Of a stretch of 64,000 bases of DNA, positions 3,501-62,768 are shown in pieces. The stretch lies in the NCBI GenBank assembly GCA_032164245.1, contig JAVMKO010000003.1, positions 44,642,890 through 44,706,889 on the forward strand. The letters run 5' to 3'. This stretch comes from Sternotherus odoratus (taxonomy: Eukaryota; Chordata; Testudines; Kinosternidae). A model generated the notes under the pieces. It saw only the letters and a program-made list of their open reading frames with translations, made no database searches and was not told the DNA's origin. The first letter of the stretch is position 1; every line of letters starts with the position of its first letter. A program made the position numbers and the translations under genes.

Positions 3501-6500
3501 AGTTTTGACCCTTTTCTTTGGGGACAACTGAATTAACCACCATCTGAGCAACTAATAGAGCCTTGGAGGGGAGCAAGGTGCAATTTTATCTGTGTTGCAA
3601 GGGAGCATAGCAGATGAGGCCTTGGTTTTTGCATAAGAGTATCACAGTATAAAGGGAATCAGAGAGGTAGCCGTGTTAGTCTGGAATAGCAGAGGTAACC
3701 AAGTCCTGTGGCACCTTAAACACTAACTATAAAGTTTTGAAGCATAAGCTTTCGTGGGCTAATACCCACTTAAGGGAAGGGACCAGATAGGGAAACCCCA
3801 GACCATACTGTTTCCAGAAAAAGGGGGAGTGTCTCCTATTTCTGTTTGTTCAGACCTACCAGAAAGCTGGACAGTAAGTACAAAACATCTACCCCCACCT
3901 GCAGCTTTCTGGCTGTGTGGAAAGAGCAGTTGTTAAAAGGATAAACTGATTCATTTTAGTATGTTTAAATTTAAGCCTCAATTCTAGAACAGCTAGTGTC
4001 AATGTTTCATTTCAATCATAGAAAACGTGAGTGTTAATTGATTTAATTTACTCGTACCTATGCATGCTGAATCGCCGACCCGGCCAACCAGTTTATTAGT
4101 GAGTCCCCCAGTGGATGTTGCACAAGCTACATTTCCTGCATTGTCTATAGCAACAGCACCAACTGTTCCAGGGTCTCTGCCAAGATTAATATTACACAGA
4201 ATTAGGCAGGGTTAAGAATACTTACCAAAGCATGTTGTGTCCATTCTGCAGGTAGCTTTTACAAATGTGAGATTACAACAGAAGTTTACAATTGAATATC
4301 ATTAACTTTAATCTAGCCTCATGTCAGAATCACTTAATTTTCATATAATTGTTTTTTTTAAATGTAGGGAGTTTCATTATGAAAAACCACTATCCATTTC
4401 AGATAACAAGCAATATGTAACAATTCTGACACAGTATCAATTTTAGAATTGATAGCACAGATGTCAAACTCTTGGACATTGCCAGCAGATCAAGGGACGT
4501 GATCGCTCCCTGCTACTTGACATTGGTGAGAGCTCATCTGGAGCACTGTGTCCAGTTTTGGGGCCCACACTATAAGAAGGATGTGGATAAATTGGAAAGA
4601 GTCCAGCAGAGGGCAACAAAAATGATTAGGGGGCTGGAGTACATGACTTATGAGGAGAGGCTGAGGGAACTGGGATTGTTTAATCTACAGAAGAGATGAC
4701 TGAGGGGGGATTTGATAGCTGCTTTCAACTATCTGAAAGGGGGTTCCAAAGAGGATGGATCTAGACTGTTCTCAGTGGTAGCAGATGACAGAACAAGGAA
4801 TAATGGTCTCATGTTGCAGTGGGGGAGGTTTAGGTTGGATATTAGGAAAATCTTTTTCACTAGGAGGGTGGTGAAGCACTGGAATGGGTTACCCTAGGCA
4901 GGTGGTGAAATCTCCTTCCTTAGAGGTTTTTAAGGTCAGGCTTGACAAAGCCCTGCCTGGGATGATTTAGTTGGGGATTGGTCCTGCTTTGAGCAGAGGG
5001 TTGGACTAGATGACCTCCTGAGGTCCCTTCCAACCCTGATATTCTATAAATCTGTGACTATTTAATCTATTTATCTGATCTCCCCATGATAAATTGATAC
5101 AGTATGAAAGCTTTCATTTGGAAATAAATAAAAAAAAATATTAGCCCTCCTGACTGTAAAGATAATTTTTCAAAGGGGACCTACTAAAGCTCTGAATTAG
5201 CCTGAAACAGAAACTCAGAAGTGGGAATTCCCTCCACCGTTCCAACTGGATGAGAGCTCTAAAGCCTAGTGATGATACATGCAAAAGATAAATGAATAAA
5301 GAAATAGCAGTCATCCTAAAAATGCCCTGTATCGCTCCCCCACATAGACTGGCAAGTCCGTGCCACTTCCCGCAGCTCCCATTGGGTGGGAACGGCGAAC
5401 CATGGCCACTGGGAGCTGTGGGCAGCCATGCAGTGGACGGTCAACATAAACTGTCTCACGGCCCACCGGTGGATTACCCTGACGGGCTGCATATGACCCA
5501 CCAACTGCAGTTTGCCCATTTCTAATCTAAAGCCTAAAATGTGTGAGTCAGTTTGAAGTGACAGAAACAGCTACAAGCAGGACTGAGAACTCTTTATTCA
5601 GAATATCACCATGTTGAATCATCACTCATTTTTGAAGTCTGTTGCCATCCTGTTGTTATGTTCTCAGCCCTTTAGACTTTACAAATTATACCCAGTGGTA
5701 TACAGGCTACAGTAAGACATGTATTTATGTCATGCCAAGAGTCCTAGACTGCTGTGATATTGGAGATAACTCAACCATTCAACCACCCTCACTCCACAAC
5801 CAATTTACATACAACAGTTGCATTGGTTGTATAAGGGAGATGGCACATATGGCATATTACTTGGCCCAGCTGCCATAATCCTTCCAAACCACTCACCCAA
5901 CACAACCAGCACACATAATCCCAAACACACACAGCCCCTTAGTGCAGTACACTCCACTCACTTGCCACCTCACAAATCCAAACATCTCCCAGAACAATCC
6001 CTGAGACCCAAAGCAACACAACTAGGATACACAGTGACCACATACACCACTCTGAAGTCTGAGTCAGTGCAAAGCCAGTAAAACAGAATGGTTGAGAGGT
6101 CTTTCGGTTTAGAAGATCACTAGGTTCAAGCCTCACTGGGATTCGTGGTCTATTACCCAACTACTATTACCCATTACTCAACTAGTAGCTGAAAGTCCAT
6201 GCTGTTGCATGGTTCTAATTAGTTAAGAATATATCTTCACCCTGTCTACAGCATGAGCTTGGCTGTCCTCTGATGTACTTTGTGTCATAGTACTGTACTA
6301 CATAACAAAATAGCTAAGTAACAATACAGAATACATTCTCTTTCTATTAGGGAGTTTTTGCCCCCTTCCACTGTCACAAGATTGAAGCTCAAACAGTTAG
6401 TATTATTAAACCCCACTCCCCACTGAAAAGGTCAGTCATTTTGATAGCTGGTTATTCTCCTGTTTTCTCCCCATCCCCCATTTTATTATTAAAAAGTTTC

Positions 6501-9500
6501 TTTCTTTCTTTCAAACATCTTTCATTCTGCTGCTGCCTCCTACCCTCACTCTCTGCTAATGGCTTTGTTTTTCTTCCTCATCCCTCACCTCCCTGGTTTT
6601 TAGGCTGTTTTAACAGTGCATTTTTAATCACCACACTTTCTGGTCTGCTTGTTTTCTCAGTGAACAAGCACCACTGCCAAACCCTGAAGTGGGGAACTAT
6701 TATCAAATTTTGGTAGATTATAAATTAATTGTTTGATCCATTTTAAAACAAATCCCAGTCTATCTTGGTTATGCAGACTTATGGATAAATATTTATGTTC
6801 TGCCAGGGTCTGGCTGTTGGTTTAGCAGTGGAGAAAGTGCCTCATTTAAACCGCAGCTCTCCTTTGGAGAGTCACTCTATATAGATGGCACTTCCTTGCG
6901 CACCAGATCGGCTCAGTGTTTTTGTTCAGGACTATCTGCTAACTTCAGCTGAAATATTCTTTCCTCACCTGCCAATGGTGGAGGGCCTGTGCTGCTAAGT
7001 GAGCATGAGCTGGATTCTCTTTCTTCTTCAGCATCAACGAGATTATTTCCCAAATTTCTTCAGTTACACTTGAGCAAGCCTACTGAAGGTTGCCCATATA
7101 TGAAGGAGATAATTTGCAAACCACATGGAAGCACATGTGTATGTCAGGACAGAATTAACCCTACAGAACTACTTTCAGATCCCACAGGGAGTCTGCATGG
7201 CTGCCAGTTAGAGAAACCACTTACTGATACCACAAACTGAGTGTATGAGACACATTAGACAGTGTAACATTTTTTGTGCAGTACCTACTTTTTCAACTCC
7301 TGAGGGTTAGAATCTGGCTCAAGGTTCTTGATCCATCTCTCCCTGGATCTTTCCGTTATAAGTTTCTCCCCTGGAATCTCAGGAACATCCATGGCCTTGG
7401 CAAAAAGGCTTGCCCCATGGTCAGTCAGCAACATGTGTTCTGTCTGACAGGGACAGAAAAGAAACTCTTGACACAAATTGGAGTTCAGTACTGATCTGTA
7501 CAGTTTTATATAAACACTTCATTGTTTTAAAAAATGTATTCAAAGGCAGTTTTTGTTTTAACTTCTTGGAAACCAATAAAAGGCACAATTGTGGCCCCAA
7601 CGCTGCTCCCATTGACTTAGCTAGGAGTATGTTTGGATTCCCATGTGCTTTTTTGGTGGAACAGTAGGATTTTGGATTCAATAATGCAAAAAACCCCAAA
7701 ACAAAATAATTAGCATTAACAGAATATAATTGCCTTCAAACATTCAATACTCATTAGATGAGAAAAACAGAATTCACTCATACCAGTTTTTTTTTCTGGA
7801 ACTAGATAGGATACTGCTATTGTGATCCTTTATAGAACTGGTAACAAAGAGTCCTGTGGCATCTTAAAGACTAGCTAAAGTATTGAAGCATAAGCTTTCG
7901 TGAGCTAATACCCACTTCGTCGGATGCATGCAGTGGAAGTGCATCTGACGAAGTGGGTATTAGCCCACGAAAGCTTATGCTTCAATACTTTAGTTAGTCT
8001 TTAAGGTGCCACAGGACTCTTTGTTACCTCTACTATTCCAGACTAACATGGCTACCTCTCTGATTCTTTATAGAACTGGTTTTGCAATTTCTTCCAATCA
8101 GTCATTGGTATTTTGCTTACCTACATGACTGGTTTGACCAGGTCACTGAACAACCTAAAGAACTATTTATATTCTAAGAGCAATATGCTCAGTGGTGACC
8201 TGCAGAAAAAAATATATTTTGTTCAAATGTTGTTGTTCCTTGTAAATAGTAAAATAATAATCCTAAACATCACATACTAACATTTTTCTTTACATCTAAA
8301 ATAACTAAATTGATGTTAACCCACCTCCAAAATATCTATTGATCTTAGGCCTAGCTCCTGTCATTATGTATGCAAATACCATTGCCGCAGAGTACCTGAA
8401 TCAGTTATCACATCTGAAGCCAAGCACTTCTTACTGCAGTAAGGCCCTGATTCAGCAAAGCACTTAAGCTCAGATTTAGGACGTAGTGAAGTAAATGGGA
8501 CTTAAGTACATATTCTTAAAGTTAAGTACATGCTTAAGAATGAATGTACAGAAAGTACAAGAAAGAAGGTACAGGCCTGAATGAATGTCCTCAAACTTCT
8601 GAATCTCTTCCTATTCCTCCAAAAACATGTCGATGAATTTACTCAACGTACCACTTCTGTCATTCTGCTTTACTACAAGTTTAGAACTTTCTGACAGAAT
8701 GAGGGGGAAAAAATTTAAAACAAGAAAAATATTTAAAAACATTAAAGTCCAAACTCTTTAACTAGTGCCTATCCTGAGCACCTTGGCTGGATCCAGGCAG
8801 TTTTGTAGAAGGGAGAATTTGACCCTAAGAGTCTGATCCTATGAGATGCTGAGTGCCCTGAACTCCCACTAACTTTTAAGGTTGTGACATGAAAAAACAA
8901 CAACCCAAAACACCTCCACCCTGACACAAATGCCAGGACACAGTGTTTCACTATTACTTAGTAGCAACCTTGAAACCCAACACAGGCAACCTGACTTTAA
9001 ATGGCCTGGGGTCCATCACAGGGAGTGTTACAATCTTAGTGTTAAATGTTGCAAACATTTACACATGTGAGTACCTTTACTTTAGTCCCGTGATTAGCCC
9101 CCTTGCATGCACTTATTGTGAGCACAGGCATTTGCAAGATCATGACTTTAAGGTACATCTGCACGCACTGGAATAAAAGAGCCACAGCGTGACTGCCACT
9201 GGCCAGTATTGGCCGACTCAAGACTCACAGGACTCAGGGCAGTAAAACTGCTGTGGGACATTCACACTCGGGCTGGAGCCCTGGCTCTGGGACTCCATGA
9301 GAAGGGAGAGTTACAGAGCCCAGCCTCCAGCCCCAACCTGAATGTCTACACAGCAATTTTGAAGCCCCACCGCCTGAACCTCGTGAGCCTGAGTCAGTTG
9401 ACTGAGGCCAGCCACAGGTGTTTTAATTGCCAGGTAGACACACCCTCACCGTCAAGCACTTTTAACATTTTTTTTATTGTCAGACTGAGTCCTTATTCAT

Positions 9501-12500: not shown

Positions 12501-15500
12501 TAGACCAGTGATGGCGAACCCGTGGCACGCGTGCCGCTGCTGGCACGCCGAGCCGTCTCTGTGGGCACGCCGTGACTACAGTCATACACTGTAGTCACGG
12601 CGTCGGCTCCCGCAGACTACATCTCCCACAGTTCTCTGGGGAGAACCCTCCCCAGAGAACACTGAAGCCACGCCCCTCGCTCTATCACCTGACACACGGA
12701 CGTCACAGGAGCGACTGGGGCAGGGGCCTCGCTGGAGTCGGGTCATAGCAGCGTGACCTAGCGAACAAGTAAGCGCCGGGGGAAGGCTGGGCTGGGAGCG
12801 GGGGTAAGCGGTGTGGGGGAGAGACCAGGCTGGGAGCGGGAGTAAGCGGTGTGGGGGAGAGACCAGGCTGGGTGGGTCAGTTGAGGGGGGTTGGAGGGAA
12901 GGAGGTTTGGGGGGGAGAGACCAGGCTGTGTGGGTCAGTTGGGGGGGGGTTGGAGGAAAGGAGGTTTGCGGGGGAGAGACCTGGCTGTGTGGGTCAGTTG
13001 GGGGGGTGGGAGGAAAGGAGGTTTGGGGGGGAGAGACCAGGCTGGGTGGGTCATTTGGGGGGTGGGTGGGAGGGAAGGAGGTTTAGGGGAGAGAGACCGG
13101 GCTGGGTGGGTCATTTGGGGGGGTGGGTGGGAGGGAAGGAGGTTTTGGGGGGAGAGACTGGGCTGAGTGGGTCAGTTGGGGGGGGGGGGTGTACAGTTTT
13201 TTTTTGTTTGTTTGTTTTTGTTTTTTTCAATAAAAAAATGTTTAATGGAAAGCTCTGTTGTTGTGTTTTTCTTTTTAAACAAAAGCTGTTAATTAGTTTG
13301 AAAAACTGTACGAATTGTTTTTTCTAAACTAAAACCTCGTTATTCAGGTTTAATTGCAGTGTTGGCACTTTGAAAAAAACAAGTCGTTTTGGTTTGCAGT
13401 TTGGGCACTTGGGCTCAAAAAGGTTTGCCATCACTGTAATAGACTCACTATTGTGTCATTTACTTCTGTCACCTGACATTGTCCCCTACAGATAATCATG
13501 CAATCTCCAGTACATTGTCCTCCTTTTTCCCTGCAGGATCAAACAAGAGGGCTGTGAAAGACTGCTCTTATTAAAACATATCTATAGTATTAGCTCAGAG
13601 AAAAGTGAAAACAACTAGTAAAGTAAATTATGTATATCAATTTTTCCTCAAGTTTGCAAGTATATGCAACATCCTTTTAAGTGTTGAATAAAATTAGCAC
13701 TTCACCTAATTTAAAAATCTTAAAATAAAAATAGTCTTGCCTCTTTATATTCATACCCATGGCCTCCACCAGGCCTTTCTCCTACCCCAATTTAAAAATA
13801 CTACACAAACAACATAGCCAGTGAAGTGTATTAATACATGCAGTGAAATCCTAAAGGAAAGAATGTTTCTTATTCAAGGGCACATTCAGCATACCTTTTC
13901 CATGACAAGACGAGCAAGCTTTATTGGGTTAGCTATACATTTAACTGCAGATACTGCTCCTGAGGCTAGATTTTTTCCATCCATGATAATGGCATCCATT
14001 TCTACTTCACCCTTCTCATTTAAAACAGATCCATAGCCTAAAGACCAAAGGGAGGGAAAAAAAGACATTAAGAGCTAAACATGGGGTGATTCAGTTTTAT
14101 TAGGCAAACCTTTTTCCAGTTTGTGTATTGGCTTGTTTTAAGCCTCCTAAATGTCAAACAGGTTTTGAAAAGAGAAATATTCCTGTTCAAACAGAAATAA
14201 TTAATAGGACAGTATATGGAACTTAATATAATTGAATTTTTAATGGTACCTAAGTCACTTTAGGTGTGAAGGACAGAGTTACAAACAACTATAAAGGAGA
14301 CTGTTTCTACCCCAATATCTCTTTTTACACATATAAAACTATTTTACCTCCACATTCCTCCAACATTAGATGCAGTGCAACCTATCAGAATACTTTAAGG
14401 TCTAATCTTTTGAGGTGCTGAAATCAGAGATGAAGGCCCACAGTATCTTGCCAGGCCAAACAACAAGATTTCAACCATTGTTGGATTTGGTGCAATGGCA
14501 CAAACGCAAAATTCTAGCAAAAGTGAAAAAATATATTTTCCATTCACCAAAAGTCTAAAATACAGTGAAATATTTATTGTTCAAAAACATAAATGAAGGA
14601 GATAAGAAAAACTAAGACAAATAAAAATGCGAAAATCTCAGCAGTTATTGGAATAGCTTTTGTAACAATTTATATCAATTCTGTAGCAAAACCTTCCTTG
14701 AACAATGAGATGCACTGTGATATGCAGGGTGGTACTGCAAAAAGCTCTCTAGCAACTGGAATATTTTATCATGAGTGCTGGCTAGTAATCGATCATCACT
14801 GAAAACAACACACCTGTAAGTCTTGCAAACAGTGGGGCAGAAAGTACAACTCCATTTGAAATCAAGCTCCTAGTAGAAACACTTTCAGTATGTTGTTAAC
14901 AGGATTGGTGCTTTAGCTGTGCGTAAACTGTGAAAAAGGTATTTTCCTGTTAGTAAACACCAGTTGCCATTCTTCTTTAATATTGGTTTACCAATCTCTG
15001 ACATTAGCCTCTTAGGCCAAAATATTACAGACCTGGGGCCACTGACTTCTGTGAATATTCATGTTGGTAAAATTATATATGCACTGATGTGTGGGGGATG
15101 AAGTATCAAGGAGCTCAATTGTCCAATTTCTGCTTAACTCCTTTCCCCAGAGTTTGAATTCCTCCACAATTTAGTGTTGCCAACCCTCCAGATTGTCCTG
15201 GAGTCTCCCGGAATCGGCATCAATATCCCAGTGACTATTGAAAGCAATCTTGGAGATTTTAATAGGATATTTTAAGAAAATTACATTACATCATGTTGGG
15301 TGTGTGTGTGTGAAATCTCCTGGAATAGCTTCAGTCAGAGTTGGCAACCCTACAGCTGCTATTCAGGGGTCAGTAAGTCAGCAATCTGTGACTAGCACTG
15401 GCTCCCATCTCCCAGCTGGGTCACATATCTGTTCCCACCTCACATGTCCAGGAAGACAAGTTAATGCAGGTGTTTCAAATCCAGGACATTCAAACATGAC

Positions 15501-19364: not shown

Positions 19365-21039
19365 ACTGCCAAACCCTTGCCAATTACAGATGTAGAAACA
19401 TGTTATTCAGAATTAATTTTCCTAAAACACACGCAAGGCAAGAAGCTTTGGCGATCGCTCCCTTCTTCATGTCCCAGCTCCACAGATGAAATCCTCTGTG
19501 TCTCAGTGTGATATTCACTAGGTTTATTTTTCAGGAGACCAAACATTCTCAATATAGGCTTCCCGATTCTGTAATTTACCTCAAGTGCTGACAGGGCATA
19601 AGTATGTTGACTTTCGTGGCATATGTTGCAAAGACTATCTATTTACTCAGCCTTTTCCTAAGGGATGTAAGGAAGGAAGGAAGGTTTTTAAAGGTTCATT
19701 CTTACTGCCTCTTTAGTCAATGGAAGTTTTGCATGTGACTTTAGTGGATGCAGGACTGACCCTTCATAACTCATGGGGAAAGAGAATTTGATTTGAATAA
19801 TTATTTCATGTGTTTTTTCAATTATATTATTCACATGGGCTTGAGATATCGTGATAGGCACAGATTACATACTCTGATGAAATAAATAAGAGCTCAACAA
19901 ATGAGAAGCAGAATTATACTGAAGAAAGGTGAAAGAGAAACACACCTCTTGGGAGAAACATGATCATACTTAAATACTTTTGTCTGTAAATTCTCTTTCT
20001 GCATTATGACTGTATATTTAGTAAGTAAATAGAGCCAAGAAACAGCAGCTACAAACTGACTGAATGGTTAGGTGAAAAAGAAAAGAAAAAAAAAAAAGAG
20101 GTCATGACAATTCTGCACCTGAAATGGTTTTGGTTTCAAGTTACTCTTTTTATACACTGAGGGCAGAATTTGATCTTAAGATATATGCAGGAAACCTCCA
20201 TTCACTTCAGTGGGGGATGCAATTTTTTTTAGTAAATCCTAATTTTGACGAGCTTTTAAAAATAAGTTTGCACACTATATATATCTACATCTACACATTA
20301 CAAGATATTGCACTTGTCTCCCTCAACCTGTTTTAAGAAGTTTCACTTATAGAAGAATTATTTCTCCACATATAACAAATTATAAGGAAATTAAAACTTG
20401 AGGCTTGTTCCTGCTAACCTTTCCTTCATGTCAAGTGAATAATCCTTATCCTCCACTTTAATCAACGTGTTTGCATAATTAAGTTAAAGCTACTCACTGA
20501 CAAGAAGGAAGTGTTAAGCAAGATCTGGCCTTAGTCTAAAACTTAACTGATGTTTTTGCCTAGATTTCAAACCTTTGACCACTTGCAAGGTAAGTATTCT
20601 GTGAAACACAAGATAGTAAAAGCTGGTAGTGAACCGTTTAATTCTTGACTGTATAGAAAGGAACATTAATTGCTTTGCCTCTCGGTAAAGAATAAGAAAT
20701 AAGGCATCTGGAGAGACCATCAGCCAAACAAGTACAGTTTGCACTCATCTAAATGTACCACGTTCAAAAATTTACAAACATCCATCTCTGTCTAGAACAA
20801 CGGTATCTTTGTCTTTATGGCCCTTTCTCCTTTGCTTTTCCTCCATTTCCATCTTACTTCCTGGACTCATGAGGCATTTCACCACATGAAAAGAGTATAT
20901 CAGGACTCACTATTATTATTAAGAAGATGACACATGCCAATGAGAGGAATGATCTTGGCTACAATACATCTTTTCACAGATAAGGTGGTAAACTGTGAGC
21001 CATATGATATTGTAAATTACATTTCTCATGACAGGTTCA
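19365..21039. other. Presumed 5'UTR intron or upstream region of ASRGL1, no feature seen
   Basis: This is A+T-rich low-copy sequence with no repeat family or exon that I recognise. If the promoter is near 24.5 kb, this is part of the first, non-coding intron. Confidence 0.5.
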
Positions 21040-21190
21040 AGAATAGCAGCCATGTTAATCTGTATCTATAGAGAAAGGGAGGAATACTTGTAGGACCTTA
21101 GAGACTTACTAGTTTATTTCAGCATAAACTTTCATGGGCTGAAATAAACTAGTTAGTCTCTAAGGTGCTACAAGTATTCCTCGCTTTCTT
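21040..21190. mobile_element. Second inverted pair of Penelope-like tails, hammerhead centre reduced
   Basis: The left arm 21073-21123 and right arm 21138-21188 are near-perfect reverse complements (GAAATAAACTAGTTAGTCTC and its complement) around a 14-nt spacer reading ATAAACTTTCATGG. The words GTTAGTCTCTAAGGTGCTAC mark the same 3' family as 45025-45070. Only a remnant of the stem II/GAAA part remains in the middle. Confidence 0.75.
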
Positions 21191-21451
21191 TACATTTATC
21201 ATGCAATTGTTATAGTCTGGATTCTGCCTCCATCTTCTCCTAGGACTATTTTGAACATTACAAGCCTCTGAATAGTCATCATTAAAAATAGATACACTGA
21301 TGCCAAAAAACAAACAGACCCCATTTTATTCTTTACCTTCCCAAATGTTTACTTTGAAGTATATGAGTTGCATTATTTAGTCCTGGACATTTGACTGGTT
21401 TTGAGGCCCAATCTCTTATAAGCCACAAGGTTTTGGAAAGGGAGCTATATG

Positions 21452-22861
21452 CCATACTAGCAAAAAATACCTGGCGTTGCTCGGGTGCATAGGAGGTGGG
21501 GAGGGGGCAGAGAGCTGAGCGAGTGCGGGGTCCGTTGGAGGAGGGAGGGGGCAGAGAGCAAACCTGACACCCCCACCGCACTTACCCCTCGACCAACCCC
21601 GACTCACATTTTCACTCCCCCACCCAAACCCAACACCCCCACGTCACCCCCCTACCAACCCGAACACCCCCTGACCAACACCCACACCTCACCCCCCCGT
21701 AGACCAAACCTGACACCCACACCTCATTTACCCCTCGACCAACCCCGAACCCCCTCCTCGCCCCCCCAACCAAACCCAAACACCCCCACCTTACCCCCCC
21801 AAACCCAACACCCCTGACCAACCCCAACACCCACACCTCACCCCCCACCCACCCCGACACCTTCCCACCCACCCCCGACCAAACCCAACAGCCCCGGCTC
21901 ACTTACCCCCTGACCAAACCCGACACCCCCACCTCACCCCCTGACCAAACCCGACACCCCTACCTCACTTACCCTCCGACCAAACCCAACTGGGGTCCAT
22001 CAGAGGTGGGGAGGGGGCAGAGAGCAGAGCGAGTGCGGGGTCCGTTGGAGGAGGGAGGGGGCAGAGAGAAAACCTGACACCCCCACCGTACTTATCCCTC
22101 GACCAACCCCGACTCACATTTTCACTCCCCCACCCAAACCCAACACCCCCCTACCAACCCATACACGCCCTGACCAACACCCACACCTCACCCCCCGTAG
22201 ACCAAACACGACACCCACACCTCATTTACCCCTCGACCAACCCCACCCCCCCTTCTTGCCCCCCCAACCAAACCCAACACCCCCACTTTACCCCCCCCAA
22301 CCCAACACCCCTGACCAACCCCAACACCTCACCCCCCACCCACCCCGACACCTTCCCACCCCCCCAGACCAAACCCAACACCCCCAGCTCACTTACCCCC
22401 CGACCAAACCCAACACCCCCACCTCACCCCCCAACCAAACCCGACACCCCCACCTCACCCCCAACCAAACCCGACACCCCTACCTCACTTACCCTCCAAC
22501 CAAACCCAACTCGGGTCCCTCGGAGGTGGGGAGGGGGCAGAGAGCTGAGCGAGTGTGGGGTCCGTTGGAGGGGGGAGGGGACAGAGAGCTGAGTGAATGC
22601 GGGGTCCGTTGGAGGGGGTATTATGACATCATAACTATGTCACAGAGAACAGCAGCTGCCCAGCTGATGTGATTGGCCTTTAAAGAATTTCACCCCTGGG
22701 GGGCATCAGAGTTGAGATTTGAAAAATTGTCGACTCTTACCCTGATTAGGACCCTAAGATCTATAACTGTACCAAATTTCAAGTCTCTAGCTCAAACGGT
22801 GTGGAAGGAGTAAGGGAACGTACATACACGCATACACCATTTGACTTTTATATATATAGAT
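21452..22861 (+). mobile_element. RTE-like repeat with a C-rich internal tandem array
   Basis: The left edge carries CCTGGCGTTGCTCGGGTG, a motif I have seen in dispersed animal repeats. The right end reads CCAAATTTCAAGTCTCTAGC, then an ACGTACATACACGCATACAC stretch, ending TTATATATATAGATT, the style of RTE-class LINE 3' ends. Between them lies the tandem array described separately. No reverse transcriptase is present. The class is inferred from the tail only. Confidence 0.5.
21491..22616. repeat. Higher-order tandem array, about 511-521 bp unit with short C-rich sub-repeats
   Basis: The header GAGGTGGGGAGGGGGCAGAG recurs near 21492, 22003 and 22523, giving two full units and a partial third. 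Within each unit, short words such as CCAAACCCGACACCCC and CACCTCACCCC repeat irregularly at roughly 25-40 bp. The strand composition is extreme: C/A on one strand, G/T on the other. Confidence 0.9.
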
Positions 22862-27630: not shown

Positions 27631-28422
27631 CAGTGAAACCTCCATTTAATGGACTAATTCGGGTGAGGGGGTGTCCGTTAAATGAAAAAGTCCGTTATTT
27701 AATAATTAAAAAAACCCGAGCTGTCGGAGCAGCAGCCTGACCGCCACAGGGTCGGGGCGGCAGCTCCGCAGCCCGCCCGCTGCCGGCACCCGGGTGGCAG
27801 CCGGGAGCCGTCAGCCAGCCCGCCCGGGTCCCGGCTGCCGGGAGCCGTCAGCCAGCCCGCCCGGGTCCCGGCTGCCGGGAGCCGTCAGCCAGCCCGCCCG
27901 GGTCCTGGCTGCCGGGAGCCGTCAGCTAGCCTGCCTGGGTCCCGGCTGCTGGGACCCGGGCGGCAGCCGGGATCCGCAGCCAGTCCGCCCAGGTCCCGGC
28001 TGCCGGGAGCTGGCAGCCAGCCCGCCCACTGGCGGGACTCGGGTGGGACCCGGCAGCCAGCCCGCCCACTGGCGGGACTCGGGTGGGACCCGGCAGCCAG
28101 CCCGCCCGCCAGCCAGCCCTCCCGCTGCCGTGACCCGGGCGGCAGCTGGGAGCAGGCAGGCAGCCCGCCCGCCAGCCAGCCCTCCCGCTGCTGTGACCCG
28201 GGCGGCAGCCAGGAGCCGGCAGCCAACCAGCCCGCTGCCTGGACCCGGGCGGCAGCCGGGAGCCGGCAGCCAGCCTGCCCGCTGCTGTGACCCGGGCGGC
28301 AGCCGGGAGCCGGCAGCCAGCCCGCGAGAAATGGATTTGGGATGCATCAGACTTGCTCAGAAATTTTGTCCGTTGCATCCGAAGTCCGTTAAATCGAGGT
28401 CCGTTAAATCGAGGTTTTACTG
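27631..28422. mobile_element. Tigger/pogo-like non-autonomous transposon with G+C-rich minisatellite core
   Basis: The ends read CAGTGAAACCTCCATTTAAT and, inverted, CAGTAAAACCTCGATTTAAC, the style of Tigger termini, with TA on both sides (27629-27630 and 28423-28424). The centre (27790-28325) is a proline/arginine-type G+C-rich tandem repeat with a 37-bp unit at the left. The 233-codon ORF across it is a repeat artefact. No transposase remains. Confidence 0.85.
27790..28325. repeat. Minisatellite, 37-bp unit at left, degenerating to the right
   Basis: GAGCCGTCAGCCAGCCCGCC recurs near 27805, 27842, 27879 and 27916 at a constant 37-bp spacing. Further right, related units with CGGCAGCCAGCCCGCC recur at variable spacing, including a near-exact duplication around 28020-28095. 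Confidence 0.9.
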
Positions 28423-40373: not shown

Positions 40374-41018
40374 CAGGGGTGGGGAACCTTTTTTCCGCCA
40401 AGGGCCATTTGACCCTTATAAAGTCATCCACGGGCCGCTCCCCCCCTCCTCCCCCCCCCCCCGGAGCCCAGGCTGGCAATGGGAGCTTAGACCCCAGCTG
40501 GCAAGGGGCCAGCAGGGGAAATCCCAAAGCAGTGGCAGGTGGAGTCCTTAGCCCTGCACTGCTTTGGGGTTTCCCCCACTGGCCCCTTGCCAGCCAGGGC
40601 CCTGCCGCCTGCCTGACCCGCCCAGCCTGGTCTCTCCCCCTCCCCCCCCAAACCTCCTTCCCTCCCCCCCCCAACCTCCTTCCATCCCCCCCCAACTGAC
40701 CCGCCCAGCCCGGTCTCTCCCCCCCCAAACCTCCTTCCCTCCCCCCCCCCCAACTGACCCACCCAGCCCGGTCTCTTTCTCCCCCCCCCCCGACCGTCGG
40801 CTCCCCGTGGCTCCTTGTTTCGCCGCCCGGCAGAGGGTGGCCGCGCGGCGCTTCCCGGCCCCAGCACGGAGCCACCTGCGGCCGGCGGCGGCAGCGGCCC
40901 ACGCTGCACTTCCTGGCCCCAGCACGGAGCCGTTCCTGGCCGGCGGCCGCGGGCCAGATAAAATGATTTGGCGGGCCGTATAAGGCCCGCGGGACGGAGG
41001 TTCCCCACCCCACCCCTG
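40374..41018. mobile_element. Full-length non-autonomous hAT element B (645 bp) with minisatellite core
   Basis: The left end is CAGGGGTGGGGAACCT; the right end is GAGGTTCCCCACCCCACCCC followed by TG. The 8-bp TSD CCCTACCA flanks it at 40366-40373 and 41019-41026. GGCCGTATAAGGCCCGCGGG and the matching left-end words are typical of this family. The core (40615-40800) carries about three units of the same minisatellite as hAT element A, on the opposite strand. ORFs of up to 221 codons across it are artefacts. Confidence 0.92.
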
Positions 41019-41366: not shown

Positions 41367-43559
41367 GAGAAAGTAAACAACTGACTGCTGCTCCACCTCA
41401 GATGCTTAATACGCTTAAGCCCATTTATAGGAATTACAGATGAAAGTTCAAAACTAGAACAACTGCAAATACTTAATGTTAAATAAAAACATTCACTCAA
41501 CCTATTCTGGAATTTGTGGTGTGTCAATGAACATTCAGTGTTTCACATGATTATCTTCATGTCAGCAACAAATTGTCAAGTAAGGGCCCAATATTTCTTG
41601 TGCTAGCTAAATGTCAATGAAAATTTCAAAGCAGCTTTTCATGAGTATATTTAGATTTCTGAATTTCATTCTCAGTTTGGTTCCATGGCAGACCAATGTT
41701 TGAAGTTGAGCATGACTAGTCAGGAAAAGCATAGTTGTCTCAGAGGTAGTGCCTTCATTTTCTTTTGCTTACTGGTTCTGTCATAACACATCTAGTGACT
41801 TTTATTTCTGCAGGAGCCTGAGTGTTGAGATGTTGGCTGCCACACAGACCCTGAGCCCTAGGTGGTATCAGTACATAATACAGAATTTTTTACACTGCTT
41901 CGTGACTTATTTGATAGAATGGACTTGCTGTGATCTGAGTGTGTAAATCACTGTGGCAAGTGGAGAACTCATGAGATTATTTGTGGTATGGACTGCCATG
42001 TTTATAGGTAAAGAACAAAATAGGGCAACATGCATGGAGTAAATAGCCTCAGAGAACAAAGAGCTGGTCTGTCTTGATTAGCTGTAAGGGAAAGTATCAA
42101 GAGTAAAAAATGGTTGAGGTAACCTAGAAAAACAAAAAACCCCAAAGACTTTAGAAAAAATAAGATATACTGTCAAAAGAGTAAAAGAAAGTTCATGATG
42201 AGATACACTGGACACTGTGTTTGCAGTGAAAGAGTTCATATGACAAACAGGTTTAGGGAGTGGAAAGAGTTTCCACTTTAAATCGTATATTAATCAAAAT
42301 AAATAGTAAAGATATCCAATGTAGATACATTTCAATCTGATGGATATGTTCAAATCCTACTTTCCAGGACTTCAAAAAGAAAGTGAAGGAAGATAATGTC
42401 AGAAAGGATGCACTGACATAACCAGGGGAACATCAACGTTATTTATAGTCTCCAGAACTGTCTTATGAAGCTCACTTGCTATACACCAGATAATATGGCA
42501 GAACCAACCTGTCACCGTTCCATAAAGAAGATTTGTCTATAGTAGGAAGCATTAAAACTGAGTAACAAGAAACTACTTGACAAACTAATGAATTCATTTT
42601 TGTTCTAAATATACCCTTATTGGAAGGTAACAGAATTTCGCTATACAGTATAACTTGTTTTGTACTTCAAACTGAATGCATCTGTTAATGAGGAATGTGA
42701 GCAGTTCAGCCTTCTTGGAATATATTACTGGACTTACGTGTTGTGAATAAATGTTCTTCTTACCTGGTGCAAAGCTTTAAGCAATATGAGATCTCAGATA
42801 TGGACTCTTGAAATCATTATATGACTCAAACTACTTTTATTTAACAGAGAATTGTAACTGCTTCTCCTGCAAGTGACAGATGTGATTCATTACATTTGGT
42901 CTTATTTTTACCTTGAGAATGCTACTGATGCCAGCTCATAGACTAACTTTTGGCAAGTCAAAGAGAGGCTGCTAGTTTGGAGTTTTTCTTTGTTGTTTGA
43001 AATGCCCAAGCTGTAGCTTTAAACTCTGTAGTAAACACTCTATACTAGCACCAAAAAAGTTTAAATAATAAACAATAGAAGCCTTTTATCTAGTATCGGA
43101 AATCCATAGATACAAAGTGAGTATATATAAACATTTTACTTTAATATTTCAGATCTTGATTCCACTTAAGAAGTTTAAAGGTCTTTCACTAAGAGTGGAT
43201 GCAAGCCAAACTGAATCACTATACTGATCATGAATATTTAACACAAGAAGCTCCTATTAAATATCACACCATTTCATAAGGAATGAAGATGTACTGAAAA
43301 TACCTAAGTATTGCTAAAATTAGGTTCTTAACCCACTGGGGAGCAGCACATGAGCTACTGCAGTGTTTCTGGCATTGTTGATCTTGTTGAAAAATGTTCA
43401 TAACAATTAAAATAAGGTGATTTTCTTGCGGGTTCCAGATTAAGAATGAAAAGCTATTAGGAATTCTAAACAGCTCTGACAAGCAACTAGTGCTGAAATA
43501 AACAAGGTCCGCTCTGGATTACTCTCACTATAAGGAACCCATAGAACTTCTGTACTCTT
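41367..43559. other. Intergenic sequence, no feature seen
   Basis: A+T-rich low-copy sequence. I found no exon or known repeat on either strand. Confidence 0.6.
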
Positions 43560-43596
43560 CATTACCACCAGACTCATAAGAAGAATATATACCTTC

Positions 43597-44792
43597 AAGT
43601 CAGTGGAACTGCTATGGGTACCCGCATGGCCCCACAGTATGCCAGCATTTTTATGGCAGACTTAGAACAACGCTTCCTTAACTCTCATCCCCTAATGCCC
43701 CTACTCTACTTGTGGAATATTGATGACATCTTCATCATCTGGACCCATGGTAAATAAGCCCTTGAGGAATTCCACCATGATTTCAACAATTTCCATCCCA
43801 CCATCACCCTCAGCCTGGACCAATCCACACAAGCGGTCCATTTCCTAGACACAACTGTGCTAATAAATTATGGGCACATACACACCACCTTATACAGGAA
43901 ACCTACTGGCAGCTACACTTACCTACATGCCTCCAGCTTCCATCCAGGACACACCACTCGATCCATTGTCTACAGCCAAGCTCTAAGATACAACCGCATT
44001 TGCTCCAATCCCTCAGACAGAAACAAACACCTACAAGAGCTTTACTAAGCATTCTTAAAACTACAATACCCACCTGAGGAAGTGAAAAAACAAATTGACA
44101 AAGCCAGAAGAGTACCCAGAAACCACCTACAACAGGATATGCCCAACAAAGACAAAAACAGAACACCATTAGCCGTCACCTTCAGCCCCCAACTTAAGCC
44201 TCTCCAACGCATCATCAAAGACCTACAACCTATCCTGAAAGATGATCCCTCACTCTCAGAGATCTTGGGAGACAGACCAGTCCTCGCTTACAGACAGTCC
44301 CCCAGCCTGAAACAAATACTCGCCAGCAACCGCACATCACACAACAAAAACACTAACCCAGGTACCTATCCTCGTAACAAAGCCCGATGCCAACTCTGTC
44401 CTCATCCAACTGACACCATCATAGGACCTAATCACATCAGCCACACCATCAGAGGCTCATTCACCTGCACATTGATCAATGTGATATATGCCATCATGTG
44501 CCAGCAATGCCCCTCTGCTATGTACATTGGCCAAACCGGTCAGTCTCTATGCAAAAGAATAAATGGAGACAAATCTGACATCAGGAATCATAACATTAAA
44601 AAACCAGTAGGAGAACACTTCAATCTTCCTGTCCATTCCATTAAAAACTTGATGGTGTCAATTTTGAAACAGAAAAACTTCCAAAACAGACTCCAACGAG
44701 AAACTGAGGCACTGGAATTAATTTTCAAATTGGACACAATAAACCAAGGGCTTAACACAACTTGCGAATGGTTCTCTCACTACACTAAGTGA
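43597..44792 (+). pseudogene. Penelope-like ORF: reverse transcriptase end plus GIY-YIG endonuclease, with two stops
   Basis: One frame runs from VSGTAMGTRMAPQYASIFMA through the catalytic-type block LWNIDDIFIIWTHG, the HFLDTTV block and a basic linker into the endonuclease part. The latter shows a Cys-rich segment (ARCQLCPH), CQQCPSAMYIGQTGQSLCKR and NLPVHSI. Stop codons at 43755-43757 and 44046-44048 interrupt it; the second is Gln (CAA) in the copy at 61680. The usual Arg-Tyr before IDD reads Trp-Asn, so the polymerase is damaged although both Asp remain. The last 236 codons are open. In an intact element it would copy RNA into DNA at cleaved target sites. Confidence 0.85.
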
Positions 44793-44990
44793 TTGCATTT
44801 CCCTAGTTAATTTACCTTAAATAGTTGTTATTTCCTGCCAGACACAGAAATCCATTTCAAAAGGTTTTTTTCTCCTGCTGATAATGGCCCATCCAAATTA
44901 AACAGCCTCTTAGAATTGGAATGCTAATGTACAACTTTTTTTTCCTTCTTTCTGTGCATATAAATGCATCTTACTTCAGTTAGATTCTAT

Positions 44991-45034
44991 GCATCCGATG
45001 AAGTGGGCTATAGCCCACGAAAGCTTATGTTGAA
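44991..45034 (+). ncRNA. Hammerhead-ribozyme-like motif in Penelope 3' end
   Basis: CCGATGA (44995-45001) stands where the CUGAUGA core belongs. GTGGGC (45003-45008) pairs perfectly with GCCCAC (45013-45018) over a TATA loop, followed by GAAA (45019-45022) and GCTTATG. The core differs from consensus at one base (U4 to C), which may lower activity. Confidence 0.55.
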
Positions 45035-45083
45035 ATAAACTGGTTAGTCTCTACGGTGCTACAAAGTCTTCCTCGTCTTATTT

Positions 45084-47559: not shown

Positions 47560-47882
47560 ATTGCTAGAAAGCTATTGACACATTGGAGGGAGTTCATAAA
47601 AGAGCAACAAAATGGCTAGGAGGTTGGAAGAAGGAAGAAAAGATTTAAAAAGCTAAATATGTACAGCTTGGCTAAGGTCCTATGGAGGCATTATAACAAT
47701 CTATAAATAATTGAAGGGTGTAATGTGAGGGAGAGGAATTAGCATAATGAAAGGGGTATAATATGGAACAATGGACTGAAACATGGAAAAGGAAAATTTG
47801 GGCTTTTAGGAAAACTATTTGGCAGTGATCAGTATTAGATTGTTGGCATAATCTCCTAAGGGAAGTGGTGGAAGCACTGGTT
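47560..47882 (+). mobile_element. Decayed CR1 fragment
   Basis: Words such as GGGAGTTCATAAAAGAGCAA and AAATGGCTAGGAGGTTGGAA followed by TCTCCTAAGGGAAGTGG follow the CR1 ORF2 C-terminal region in order, with many changes and no open frame. The fragment stops at the Penelope end inserted at 47883. Confidence 0.65.
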
Positions 47883-47976
47883 GCATCCGACGAAGTGGGT
47901 ATTAGCCCACAAAAGCTTATGCTTCAATACTTTAGTTAGTCTTTAAGGTGCCACAGGACTCTTTGTTACCTCTGTC
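47883..47976 (+). mobile_element. Short Penelope-like 3' end with disabled hammerhead core
   Basis: GCATCCGACGAAGTGGGTAT, TAGCCCACAAAAGCTTATGC and CTTTAAGGTGCCACAGGACT match the right arm of 7940-8027. The GAAA of the core is AAAA here, a change at an essential G. Confidence 0.8.
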
Positions 47977-52286: not shown

Positions 52287-53599
52287 TTAGGCACTCATGA
52301 AACTGGTTTTCAAGGCGTCCCTGAGGCGAAGCGCCTCATGGTGCTCTCTTCTACTTTCCCTGCTGTCTGGCTGCTGGTAAGCAGCAGACAGTAAATTTGC
52401 CTCTGCCTCCCAGCCCGCCATAAACGTTTCCCCCTTGCTCTCACAGAGATTGTGGAGCACAGAGCAAGCAGCGATAACAATGGGGATATTTCTCTCGCTG
52501 ATGTCTGAGCGAATCAGTAATGAATGCCATCTCCCCTTCAGATGGCCAAATGCACACTCTACTGCCATTCTGCACTTGCTCAGCCTGTAATTGAACAGCT
52601 CCTGACCCCTGTCCAGGGCCCCAGTGTAGGGCTTCATAAGCCAGGGCATTAAGGGGTAGGCTGGGTCCCCAATGAGAACGATGGGCATTTCCACCCCCCC
52701 CCCATGGAAATTTTCTGGTCGGGGAAGAAAATCCCTTGCTGCAGCTGTCTAAAAATCCTAGAGTTCCTGAAAACACGAGCGTCATGAACCTTTCCTGGCC
52801 ACCCCACGTACAGGTCGGTGAAACGTCCCTTGTGGTCAACCACTGCTTGCATGACCATTGAATAATATCCCTTCCAGTTTCTGTACTCCGCGGCCTCATT
52901 GTCCGGTGCCAGGATAGGGATATGAGTCCCATCTATAGCCCCACCACAGTTAGGGAATCCCATGGTGGCAAAGCCATCTATTGTAGCTTGCAGGTTTCCA
53001 AGGTTTATAACCCTGGGTAGCAGCTGCTCGACCATTGCCCTGCTTACTTGCATCACAGCAGAGCCCACTGTAGATTTACCCACCCCAAACTGATTTGCGA
53101 CTGACCGGTAGCTGTCTGGCGTTGCAAGCTTCCAGAGGGCTATCACCACTTGCTTCTCAACTGTGAGGGCCGCTCTCATTCTGGTATTCTTGCGCCGGAG
53201 GGCCGGGGAAAGCAAGTCACAAAGTTCCATGAACGTGCCCTTACGCATGCGAAAGTTTCTGAGTCACTGGGAGTCATCCCAGACCCGCAGCACTACGCGA
53301 TCCCACCAGTCAGTGCTTGTTTCCCTGGCCTAGAATCGGTGTTCCATGGCATGAGCCTGCCCCATTGCCACCAAATTTGCCAGATTGTCGGTTGCCCTAC
53401 TTCCAAAAAACGCAGTGTCCCTGTCCCTGCAATGCATGTCCAGGTCCATGTCCTCCTCCTCTTCCTCCTCCTCCTCACTGTCAGCAGCTTCAGGAAAGCG
53501 CAGTTGTCTCCTCTGCAGACGATGCAGCATAAAATCCAGAACAAGGCGGGAGGTCTTCACAACGGCCAGTGCTGCAGTGATGGCATCTGCGGGCTCCAT
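52287..53599 (-). pseudogene. PIF/Harbinger DDE transposase (HARBI1-like), inactivated
   Basis: One frame runs from MEPADAITAALAVVKTSRLV (start at 53599) through an acidic Glu-run near 53460, then MRKGTFMELCDLLSPALRRK, the helix-turn-helix-like VGKSTVGSAVMQ, the first Asp in AIDGTHIP and the second in GWPGKVHDARVF. After a frameshift in a C10 run (52694-52703) the neighbouring frame carries GDPAYPLMPW and the catalytic Glu region CRMAVECAFGHLKGRW, ending at 52287. TAG at 53330-53332 and TGA at 53264-53266 interrupt the first part. The length of about 437 codons fits the family. It excised and inserted Harbinger elements when intact. Confidence 0.85.
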
Positions 53600-57519: not shown

Positions 57520-58232
57520 CAGTGATGGCGAACCCGTGGCACGCGTGCCGCTGCTGGCACGCCGAGCCGTCTCTGTGGGCACGCCGTGACTACAGTCATA
57601 CACTGTAGTCACGGCGTCGGCTCCCGCAGACTACATCTCCCACAGTTCTCTGGGGAGAACCCTCCCCAGAGAACACTGAAGCCACGCCCCCTGCTCTATC
57701 ACCTGACACACGGACCTCACAGGAGCGACTGGGGCAGGGGCCTCGCTGGAGTCGGGTCATAGCAGCGTGACCCAGCGAACAAGTAAGCGCCGGGGGAAGG
57801 CTGGGCTGGGAGCGGGGGTAAGCGGTGTGGGGGAGAGACTGGGCTGGGTGGGTCAGTTGGGGGGGGTTGGAGGAAAGGAGGTTTGGGGGGGAGAGACCAG
57901 GCTGGGTGGGTCAGTTGGGGGGGGTCGGAGGAAAGGAGGTTTTGGGGGTAGAGACTGGGCTGAGTGGGTCAGTTGGGGGGGTGTACAGTTTTTTTTTGTT
58001 TGTTTGGTTTTTTTTGTTTGTTTCAATAAAAAAATGTTTAATGGAAAGCTCTGTTATTGTGTTTTTCTTTTTAAACAAAAGCTGTTAATTAGTTTGAAAA
58101 ACTGTACGAATTGTTTTTTCTAAACTAAAACCTCGTTATTCAGGTTTAATTGCAGTGTTGGCACTTTGAAAAAAACAAGTCGTTTTGGTTTGCAGTTTGG
58201 GCACTTGGGCTCAAAAAGGTTTGCCATCACTG
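57520..58232. mobile_element. Full-length non-autonomous hAT element A, second copy (713 bp)
   Basis: This has the same termini and body as 12506-13436, with the 8-bp TSD GTCCAGAG at 57512-57519 and 58233-58240 inside CR1 sequence. The outer parts are almost identical to the first copy, which points to recent mobility. The minisatellite core (57830-57985) has only about three units against six to seven in the first copy, which explains most of the 218-bp length difference. Confidence 0.95.
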
Positions 58233-58497: not shown

Positions 58498-59408
58498 TTG
58501 TCAGGGTGGGCGAGGGCAGCCCCTGGCCGGAAGCTCTGGCAGCAGACGTCCCGCCCCCGCTGCACTGGGCATGCTCCAAGTGCTCAGGCTGTATAAAGGG
58601 AGTGAGCCCAGCTCAGTGTGGGCCGACGGCCGAAGGAGGAGGACGTGCGTGGGGAGCTCTCCCGAGGAACCAGCCCCAGCCGTATCCGGAGCCAGAGCCG
58701 CAGCAGGATCCTGCCTCGGAGTTCATTGCCGACCACCGCCGACTGGGGTCCGTAGACCACGACCAGACTGAGGAGGCCGTGGACCCAGCTACGTGCGGGG
58801 GATCAGCAACCCACCGGAGGACCCCGCCTCTGGAACCGGTAGAAACGGACCCTGGGATATTGAGGGAGTAGTACGACCCACCTGAAGACACTCAGCGTGT
58901 TGCGGTGGGACCTCCCCGCTGAGTGGGTGGCTAGGTGCACGGCCATTCGCCCACACTGCCCAAGCCGAGGGGCTGTCATTGACTCCGGCCATTGGGCCGC
59001 ACTGCCCCAGAAGGGGGGCTGTTATTGACACCGGCCCTTAGGCCGCACTGCCCCAGCAGAGGGGCTGTTATTGACTCTGGCCCTTAGGCCGCACTGCCCC
59101 AGCGGGGGGGGGGGGGCTGTTATTTACTCCGGCCCTTAGGCCGCACTGCCCCAGCAGAGGGGCTGTTATTGACTCCGGCCATTGGGCCGCACTGCCCCAG
59201 CGGGGGGGCTGTTATTGACTCCGGCCATTGGGCCGCACTGCCCCAGCGGGGGGGCTGTTATTGACTCCGGCCATTGGGCCGCACTGCCCCAGAAGGGGGG
59301 CTATTCTTGACTACAGCCGCTAGGCCACATTGCCCCAGCAGGGGGGCTGTCAGGGACTCCGGCCACTAGGCCACACTGCCCCCGCCTGGGGGCACGAACC
59401 CTGACACA
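58498..59408 (+). mobile_element. LTR-like insert with TATA box and a 47-bp minisatellite
   Basis: It starts near TGTCAGGGTGGGCGAGGG and ends CACGAACCCTGACA, so the ends are inverted TGTCAGGG/CCCTGACA in the TG...CA style of LTRs. CTGTATAAAGGGAGTGAGCC near 58588 is a TATA-type promoter. The right half is a tandem array. The left boundary is uncertain because the CR1 target itself contains GTCAGGGTGG, and no TSD is visible. ORFs of 122-143 codons here have no known domain. Confidence 0.55.
58945..59395 (+). repeat. Minisatellite, about 47-bp unit, around ten copies
   Basis: The unit contains GGGGCTGTTATTGACTCCGG and CCGCACTGCCCCAG. Copies differ mainly in a 'cccttag / ccattgg' position and in the length of the G-run between units. 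Confidence 0.92.
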
Positions 59409-61679: not shown

Positions 61680-62456
61680 CTCTACCAAGCATTCTTAAAA
61701 CTGCAATACCCACCTGGGGGAGTGAAAAGACAAATTGACAGAGCCAGAAGAGTACCCAGAAGCCACCTACTACAGAACATGCCCAACAAAGACAAAAACA
61801 GAACACAATTAGCTGTCCCCTTCATCCCCCAATTTAAGCCTCTCCAATGCAGCATCAAAGACCTACAACCTATCCTGAAAGATGATCCCTCACTCTCACA
61901 AATCTTGGGAGACAGACCAATCCTCGCTTACAGACAGCCCCCCAACCTGAAACAAATACTCACCAGCAACCACACACCACACAACAAAAACACTAACCCA
62001 GGTACCTATCCTTGTAACAAAGCCCGATGCCAACTCTGTCCTCATATCCATTCAACTGACACCATCATAGGACCTAATCACATCAGCCACACCATCAGAA
62101 GCTCATTCACCTGCACATCGACCAATGTGATATATGCTATCATGTGCCAGCAATGCCCCTCTGCTATGTACATTGGCCAAACCAGCCAGTCTCTATGCAA
62201 AAGAATAAATGGACACAAATCTTACATCAGGAATCATAACATTCAAAAACCAGTAGGAGAACACTTCAGTCTTCCTGGCCATTCCATTAAAGACTTGACG
62301 GTGTCAATTTTGAAACAGAAAAACTTCCAAAACAGACTCCAACGAGAAAGCGAGGAACTGGAATTAATTTTCAAATTGGACACAATAAACCAAGGGCTTA
62401 ATAGAACTTGTGAATGGTTCTCTCATTACACTAATGGATTGCATTTCCCTAGTTAA
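61680..62456 (+). CDS. Penelope-like ORF fragment: linker and intact GIY-YIG endonuclease
   Basis: The frame is open from the truncation point (the codons read through LYQAFLKLQYPP-type sequence) to the stop near 62456; the GTG-begun part is 244 codons. Visible elements are a basic stretch RQIDRARRVPRSHL, the Cys/His-rich ARCQLCPHIHSTD, NVIYAIMCQQCPSAMYIGQT (the GIY-YIG-type motif is MYIGQT), LCKRINGHKSYIRNHN and a C-terminal EWFSHYTNG. It lacks the reverse transcriptase, so it cannot move by itself. In intact elements the endonuclease nicks the target. Compared with the copy at 44082-44792 it has no stop and retains His in NGHKS, which the other copy has as Asp. Confidence 0.85.
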   Translation, partial: LYQAFLKLQYPPGGVKRQIDRARRVPRSHLLQNMPNKDKNRTQLAVPFIPQFKPLQCSIKDLQPILKDDPSLSQILGDRPILAYRQPPNLKQILTSNHTPHNKNTNPGTYPCNKARCQLCPHIHSTDTIIGPNHISHTIRSSFTCTSTNVIYAIMCQQCPSAMYIGQTSQSLCKRINGHKSYIRNHNIQKPVGEHFSLPGHSIKDLTVSILKQKNFQNRLQRESEELELIFKLDTINQGLNRTCEWFSHYTNGLHFPS

Positions 62457-62630
62457 TTTACCTTCAATAGTTGTTATCTCCTGCCAGACACATAAATCCA
62501 TTTCAAAAGGATTTTTTTTTCTCCTGCTGATAGTGGCCCATCCAAATTAAACAGCCTCTTTGAATTGGTATGCTATTTTTTTTTTTTTTAGCGTTCTGTG
62601 TGTATAAATGCATCTTCTGTTAGATTCTAT

Positions 62631-62672
62631 GCATACAATGAAGTGGGCTATAGCCCATGAAAATTTATGCTG
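62631..62672 (+). ncRNA. Degraded hammerhead-like motif in Penelope 3' end
   Basis: GTGGGC and GCCCAT flank a TATA loop and are followed by GAAA, but the CUGANGA core reads ACAATGA. It is probably inactive. Confidence 0.4.
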
Positions 62673-62768
62673 AAATAAATGGGTTAGTCTCTAAGGTGCT
62701 ACAAAGTCTTTCTCATCTTATTTTCAGATACAGACTAACATGGCTGCTAATCTTAAACACTGCAAAAT

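Follow-up and report, generated by a model that had tools for sequence, protein, structure and literature searches.

Head-to-head termini of a Penelope-like element in the turtle Sternotherus odoratus combine one long with one short outer end and probably arose by twin-primed reverse transcription

An inverted pair of element ends inside a single target-site duplication

We analyzed a stretch of 64,000 nucleotides from the turtle Sternotherus odoratus (assembly GCA_032164245.1, contig JAVMKO010000003.1, positions 44,642,890 to 44,706,889), here called the window. Its longest inverted repeat, among those with arms at most 400 nt apart, is a head-to-head dimer with the following parts:

7823-7842: left target-site duplication (TSD), 15-20 bp
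7843-7928, sense strand minus: left arm, with the "short" reverse transcription (RT) start at its outer end, 7843
7929-7939: 11-nt spacer
7940-8025, plus strand: right arm
8026-8060, plus strand: tail of 35 nt past the short start; its end lies at the "long" RT start, 8060-8065
8061-8080: right TSD, 19/20 to the left copy

The two arms are 86 bp long and identical at 82 positions, all four mismatches being transitions, and the TSD copies match at 19 of 20 positions, including a perfect run of 15. The 35 element bases of the tail are present in the right arm and missing from the left. Folded as RNA, 7843-8060 forms one hairpin of -156.2 kcal/mol, whereas shuffled sequences reach -51.8 +/- 4.5 (z -23.4). 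A preliminary description of this locus had seen inverted arms around an 11-nt spacer, a direct repeat flanking the whole pair, insertion as one unit and a transcript that would fold into one long hairpin. All of this is borne out, the unit insertion by the fact that there is only one TSD, on the outside of both arms. That such a hairpin would block self-cleavage, as was also predicted, is a reasonable inference from the modeled fold. By comparison with loci L088 (see below) and L090, the spacer can be read as the left arm continuing into the upstream pLTR, where it would be joined to the right arm with an overlap of ~2 nt.

Rfam matches of the long hairpin to microRNA precursors all fell below the gathering score and were rejected as a result of the near-perfect pairing. 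A 15-mer of the arm matched 35 loci on viral contigs, which were discarded as chance matches, the longest alignment to the arm spanning 23 nt; the 15-mer had zero matches among genome contigs, a second pattern had zero among viral contigs, and a text search of papers did not return the 15-mer.

The arms are the termini of a Penelope-like element

Blast searches inside the window revealed six insertions of related termini, namely two dimers, two solo copies (C and D) and two termini (G and H) that lie downstream of open reading frame (ORF) remnants of a Penelope-like element (PLE):

21017-21030: left TSD of the second dimer (13/14)
21031-21123, minus strand: left arm of the second dimer, long start, tail about 21031-21071
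21138-21189, plus strand: right arm of the second dimer, short start
21190-21203: right TSD copy of the second dimer
3659-3771, minus strand: solo terminus, copy C, long start
47882-47973, plus strand: solo terminus, copy D, short start
43545-44789, plus strand: PLE ORF remnant preceding G, with an RT motif, an endonuclease region and in-frame stops
44990-45081, plus strand: PLE terminus G, short start
about 61668-62453, plus strand: second PLE ORF remnant, GIY-YIG, upstream of H
62630-62752, plus strand: PLE terminus H, long start; TATAAA at 62603

The second dimer (21031-21189) is the second longest inverted repeat in the window with arms at most 400 nt apart; it has the same head-to-head plan, but its tail of ~41 nt is on the left arm.

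The ORF-remnant regions of G and H are 91 percent alike across 1067 bases. The H ORF matches Pfam GIY-YIG (E 6e-4, 20.4 bits, below the cut-off of 22.6), and part of the G ORF has a weak match to RVT_1 (E 0.015, 15.4 bits, below the cut-off of 29.6). A protein search with the H ORF returned 46 proteins, the best eight of which are all from turtles at 78-81 percent identity, in agreement with the turtle host assumed in the preliminary description, and several turtle relatives carry precomputed GIY-YIG, RVT_1 or PF26215 domains. Termini next to an ORF with RT and GIY-YIG regions, as found here, characterize an endonuclease-bearing PLE, and inverted pLTRs with a TSD and a tail on one arm are a further PLE trait present in the window. 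Judged by its sequence, the order ORF-pLTR at G and H is that of a PLE. The family of arms in the first dimer is linked to the PLE ORF by L088 (961-2305), a head-to-head PLE dimer with 535-bp arms (95 percent) inside a 19-bp direct repeat with one mismatch. Each strand of L088 has a tblastn match to the PLE ORF (E 4e-73 and 1e-36), and the tail on the long side of this locus is scrambled. The Penelope origin that had been proposed for the arms is thus supported by ORF remnants adjoining related ends and by the ORF pieces in L088.

Among the single termini, copy C has a flanking repeat of 9 nt only, a length reached by 208 of 2000 random pairs, and copy D none above 6. For copy G no direct repeat was found within 43300-43560, and a 12-nt candidate with one mismatch lies further out; some of the 16-nt direct repeat at copy H may belong to the element.

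TATAAA occurs in the PLE pLTRs at 44959 and 62603, 27-31 nt upstream of a conserved TGCAT. The idea that the inner ends of arms mark a transcription start, which came from these two copies, is weakened by L088, whose arms measure 535 bp, and by other arms with longer upstream extensions.

The arms harbor a hammerhead-like core

7941-7980, plus strand: minimal hammerhead-like motif of the right arm; predicted cut after 7976
7888-7927, minus strand: corresponding motif of the left arm, whose core, CCGACGAA, has C at position 4

The arms had been described as hammerhead-bearing. The motif of the right arm consists of stem I (GCAT/ATGC), the core CTGACGAA, a 6-bp stem II and GAAAGCTT; compared with the core CUGANGA...GAAA...UH with stems I and II, it fits apart from one extra A. 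A minimal descriptor, made up of a 4-bp stem I, the core, stem II, GAAA, a short stretch of bases and UH, and relaxed after the sequences had been seen, matches both arms of the first dimer and copy G, with 0 matches in 60 simulated 64-kb sequences. It fits only with one extra A, and the left arm only if U4 may be C. Likewise, the consensus of the 40 dimers described below has the core CCGACGAA, with C at position 4 and not CUGANGA, and one extra A before stem II.

The preliminary description had named a covariance search without a hammerhead hit as a result that would refute it, and the search came out that way: five scans with the Rfam hammerhead models gave no match at the gathering score nor at E <= 10. 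Published accounts, as far as available, describe PLE hammerheads as minimal type I motifs in the pLTR, with core, stems I and II and almost no helix III (PMC6155905, PMC7761336). Since such motifs lack helix III, Rfam models may miss them, and a hammerhead of this type may be present despite the empty scan. The arms resemble the PLE hammerheads in these accounts in their core, stem I, stem II, little helix III and pLTR position, and differ from them in the consensus C at core position 4 and the extra A before stem II. The claim is thus supported in part: a core, stem II and GAAA are present, but the consensus has C at position 4 and the extra A, and no Rfam model matches. On sequence grounds we regard the core as a minimal, non-canonical, putative ribozyme. 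The hammerhead motif of an Anolis PLE cleaved only with protein present (PMC11167929).

In the second dimer (21105-21155) the inner end of the right arm, judged by eye, is located ~3-5 nt beyond the predicted hammerhead cut; being a single case, this may be chance.

Dimers recur in the genome, most with a direct repeat of their own

The preliminary description had suggested a search for the same inverted junction at other loci with TSDs. A genome search with the 223-base dimer as query gave 3574 first-look candidates, of which 40 were scored (the window locus and 39 others). All 40 are full dimers, with essentially all 223 bases matched at 91-100 percent. We analyzed the other 39 dimers together with their flanks. 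Allowing one mismatch, 35 of them lie between the two copies of a direct repeat of 11-19 bp. These 35 repeats all differ from one another, and their mean AT content, taken over the repeats alone, is 67 percent. When left and right flanks were shuffled, only 11 of 1910 pairs had a repeat of at least 11 bp. A TSD of 11 or more was absent at four loci (L062, L071, L075, L080).

The junctions at the center of the dimers are diverse. The 40 loci hold 30 junction strings, the commonest in nine loci; merging strings that differ by point changes leaves ~22 types by eye, 18 of them single and the commonest present at about 14 loci. Four loci of the commonest type also share a deletion in both arms. Shared junction and shared deletion indicate that some loci may be copies of one dimer.

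Dimers combine one long with one short outer end

We measured the outer ends of the eight arms in the window, counting from where stem II begins, with E and F placed by ruler from H. The ends fall into a short class of 73-80 (arms A, D, F and G; in ascending order 73, 78, 79 and 79-80) and a long class of 108-119 (arms B, C, E and H; in ascending order 108-113, 110-113, 111 and 119). As read from genomic ends, the family has two internal RT starts 30-40 nt apart, as expected of a PLE, and each window dimer has one short and one long end (+35-41 nt).

We then used a sample of 20 stretches of 10 kb (200 kb) from contigs C1 and C2, chosen regardless of the repeat. It holds 23 arms, which make up seven dimers, eight solo termini and one edge fragment. 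In all seven dimers (L084, L087, L088, L095, L096, L099, L100) a long end is paired with a short one, and all seven are flanked by a direct repeat, 11-19 bp long and with no more than one mismatch. With the second window dimer added, the pairing holds in 8 of 8, which has a probability of 0.5^8 = 0.004 if ends are independent and even. The solo copies of the sample comprise five long and three short ends, one of the short ones ending somewhat before the short point. Among the 39 other dimers of the genome search, all 39 have the right-arm tail, which is implied by the query, and none has a full left-arm tail; one has a partial tail of 17 nt (L075). A long-long dimer would also match this query, so the lack of long-long dimers is not forced by the search; short-short dimers are disfavored by a query that bears the tail.

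Biochemical work on a purified PLE of Anolis carolinensis found that RT starts most often 111-118 nt into the ORF that begins at stem II, and that the 30-40 bp tail is the stretch between two RT start sites (PMC11167929). Both target strands were cleaved and extended, and the protein is predicted to dimerize (PMC11167929). Start sites in vitro did not differ between strands (PMC11167929); the strict pairing is thus a genomic pattern and does not come from that study.

Inner ends indicate that in most dimers neither arm is a copy of the other

At the center, the arm with the short start extends further upstream than the tailed arm in 35 of 40 loci by script and 34 by eye, the script erring in one direction at L060 and L076 and in the opposite direction at L065, and the 40 loci not all being independent. 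The tailed arm, which usually stops earlier, therefore cannot be a copy of the other arm. Junctions show an overlap of 1-3 nt at 23 of 40 loci, no overlap at one, and apparent gaps or filler at 16, some of which are mutations that the script read as gaps. The cDNA from the short start has the 3' end ...GTGGAAGTG, whose TG can pair at two alternative sites in the other cDNA; this would give the commonest and the next common junctions. A single TSD, inverted arms, outer ends at RT starts and inner microhomology, the marks of twin-primed target-primed reverse transcription, are all found.

A single priming event followed by a switch to the opposite strand had been proposed for the first dimer: the cDNA would reach the 5' end of the RNA, snap back or switch strand and copy itself outward. 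Palindromes at inverted PLE junctions led the authors of a 2013 paper to self-priming (PMC3846280), although in the available part of that paper (Arkhipova 2013) the idea concerned an antisense template. The arms of one locus do resemble each other, and at L049, L060, L064, L072, L076 and L077 the tailed arm is, by eye, longer inside, which is compatible with single priming. However, the second arm would be expected to run into the start or flank of the first arm and not to the other start point, whereas the ends lie at two starts in 7/7 sample dimers and both window dimers. The longer untailed arm at about 34-35 of 40 centers likewise speaks against either arm copying the other. For these reasons single priming is not favored, and we judge it rather unlikely.

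Most dimers were apparently made afresh when they inserted

Another explanation holds that the dimer itself is a non-autonomous element, transcribed and amplified as a unit. It would account for the high copy number (3574 first-look candidates, with every scored locus a dimer) and for the junction string shared by nine loci, or the type shared by about 14, but about 22 junction types in 40 loci do not agree with it. We compared the arms, all from one genome, across 82 columns and again without 10 outer-edge columns where indels disturb the alignment, with these mean distances:

Left-left between loci: 0.0658 (82 columns), 0.0489 (without edge)
Right-right between loci: 0.0454 (82 columns), 0.0435 (without edge)
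Left-right between loci: 0.058 (82 columns), 0.0474 (without edge)
Left-right in the same locus: 0.0475 (82 columns), 0.0404 (without edge, the lowest value)

The same-locus mean was reached by none of 5000 random pairings, with or without the edge columns. Left arms of different loci are no closer to each other than to their own right arm, against what unit amplification would give. Right arms of different loci, in contrast, resemble each other about as much as same-locus arms do, and in the common-junction group more so (0.0213 versus 0.0318 in the same locus); this counts against a clean reading, for unit copying could give it.

The left and right consensuses are identical at all 82 columns, where unit amplification would let them differ. 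Furthermore, 26 non-consensus letters are common to both arms of a locus, compared with 8.6 in random pairings (maximum 18 in 2000 permutations); without the edge there are 17, compared with 6.8 (maximum 15). Ten of the shared letters are one subfamily variant, and four shared variants (L058, L059, L061, L070) occur in no other arm, again in conflict with amplification as a unit. With the edge included, changes seem more numerous in left arms (126 versus 82, p 0.001), but the difference disappears without the 10 edge columns (81 versus 69, p 0.25). Together, the variants common to both arms and the closeness within loci suggest that most dimers were made from one template at insertion; judged by these comparisons most seem to have formed anew, while a subset may have been amplified as units, and gene conversion between arms could also be a source of shared variants. 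As the origin of the dimers, amplification as a unit is in our view unlikely.

Two adjacent separate insertions, or a later duplication-inversion, have nothing specific in their favor and are very improbable given the one outer TSD at 35 of 39 loci and at both window dimers. A foldback element of the DNA type, or a MITE whose inverted termini are long, would also show inverted arms and a TSD, but this is hardly credible for a family with single-arm copies, 5'-truncated ORF copies, one-sided tails, PLE ORF pieces in L088 and direct repeats that vary in length from 11 to 19.

Discussion

The outer ends at two points, the overlaps at the inner ends and the tail on the arm that usually stops earlier at the center favor twin priming, and we consider it likely that the first dimer is a twin-primed insertion of a PLE. 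In such an insertion the PLE protein, perhaps as a dimer, would cut the two strands of the target at points about 15 bp from each other, and the staggered cut would leave 3' overhangs that give rise to the TSD. Each overhang would prime RT inside the PLE RNA, the upstream (short) start serving one overhang and the downstream (long) start the other, and both cDNAs would run towards the 5' region of the RNA. By its 3' end, one cDNA could then anneal to a few nt of the other and be copied or joined. The product would be a head-to-head dimer with a tail on one arm only. We infer the order of these steps, as well as a protein dimer that works on one RNA with one start site per strand, a notion that the variants shared within loci fit. 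Points against the model are the apparent gaps or filler at 16 of 40 junctions, the four loci without a TSD of 11 or more, and the in vitro start sites that are alike on both strands.

More tentatively, and with a little less than even confidence, we propose that the two start sites of PLEs exist so that a dimer can copy one RNA from both cut strands at once. If true, a single mechanism, distinct from the target-primed reverse transcription of LINEs, would explain why the tail is one-sided, why pLTRs are inverted and why long ends are strictly paired with short ones. The mobilization of PLEs is poorly understood, including the origin of their frequent inverted, one-tailed copies. With many turtle dimers, most of which have a readable TSD, ends and junction, mechanism becomes a counting problem, in which pairing, overlaps and within-locus variants can each accept or reject a mechanism.

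The general architecture, head-to-head PLE ends with a tail on one arm, is already known; to our knowledge, the strict pairing of a long with a short end and the model of two strands and two sites are new. Penelope elements of Adineta vaga (Pen2a_Av and others) have inverted pLTRs, one of which may bear a 31-bp tail, and an outer TSD, a structure that the available part of their description treats as typical of Penelope (PMC3846280). As in the turtle, head-to-head pLTRs with an optional one-arm tail are flanked as a whole by a TSD, and one inverted arm is 37 bp shorter, a further likeness to our dimers. In contrast, the ORF there usually lies between the pLTRs, whereas most dimers here are two short arms only; the TSDs named are 8-10 bp, compared with 11-19 bp for our direct repeats; and the structure was explained in 2013 by self-priming, whereas we favor twin priming.

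Poseidon PAc of Anolis carolinensis shares with the turtle family two internal RT starts bounding the tail and the start at 111-118 nt (PMC11167929). It cuts and extends both strands in vitro, while the turtle dimers are known from genomic sequence, and the main text of that study draws no link between both-strand extension and inverted genomic copies (PMC11167929). The turtle dimers join the both-strand extension seen in vitro to genomic remains.

In human L1, second priming inside the RNA produces an inverted, non-overlapping 5' part; here, unlike in L1, both cDNAs would cover the same region from two start points. Common to our model and to L1 twin priming, as far as the source is available, is that both 3' ends of one break prime on element RNA (Ostertag and Kazazian 2001; PMC2246262). 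In the literature that we searched for Penelope together with twin priming, Penelope appeared, where checked, only in reference lists.

Other features of the window

The minus strand at 52649-53248 encodes a 199-aa ORF with DDE_Tnp_4 (E 2.5e-18), the remnant of a DNA transposon that we take to be PIF/Harbinger-like. Two stretches 45 kb apart (13204-13436 and 58000-58232) are 98 percent identical and represent either a recent duplication or a young repeat; both adjoin a G-rich minisatellite with 58-59-bp units (12853-13186 and 57829-57981). Further minisatellites are located at 58940-59393 (46-bp unit), 27779-28326 (GC-rich units of 37-63 bp) and 21674-22510 (C-rich units of about 30-35 bp). 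A GC-rich inverted repeat at 40492-40599 has 43-nt arms (88 percent) around 22 nt.
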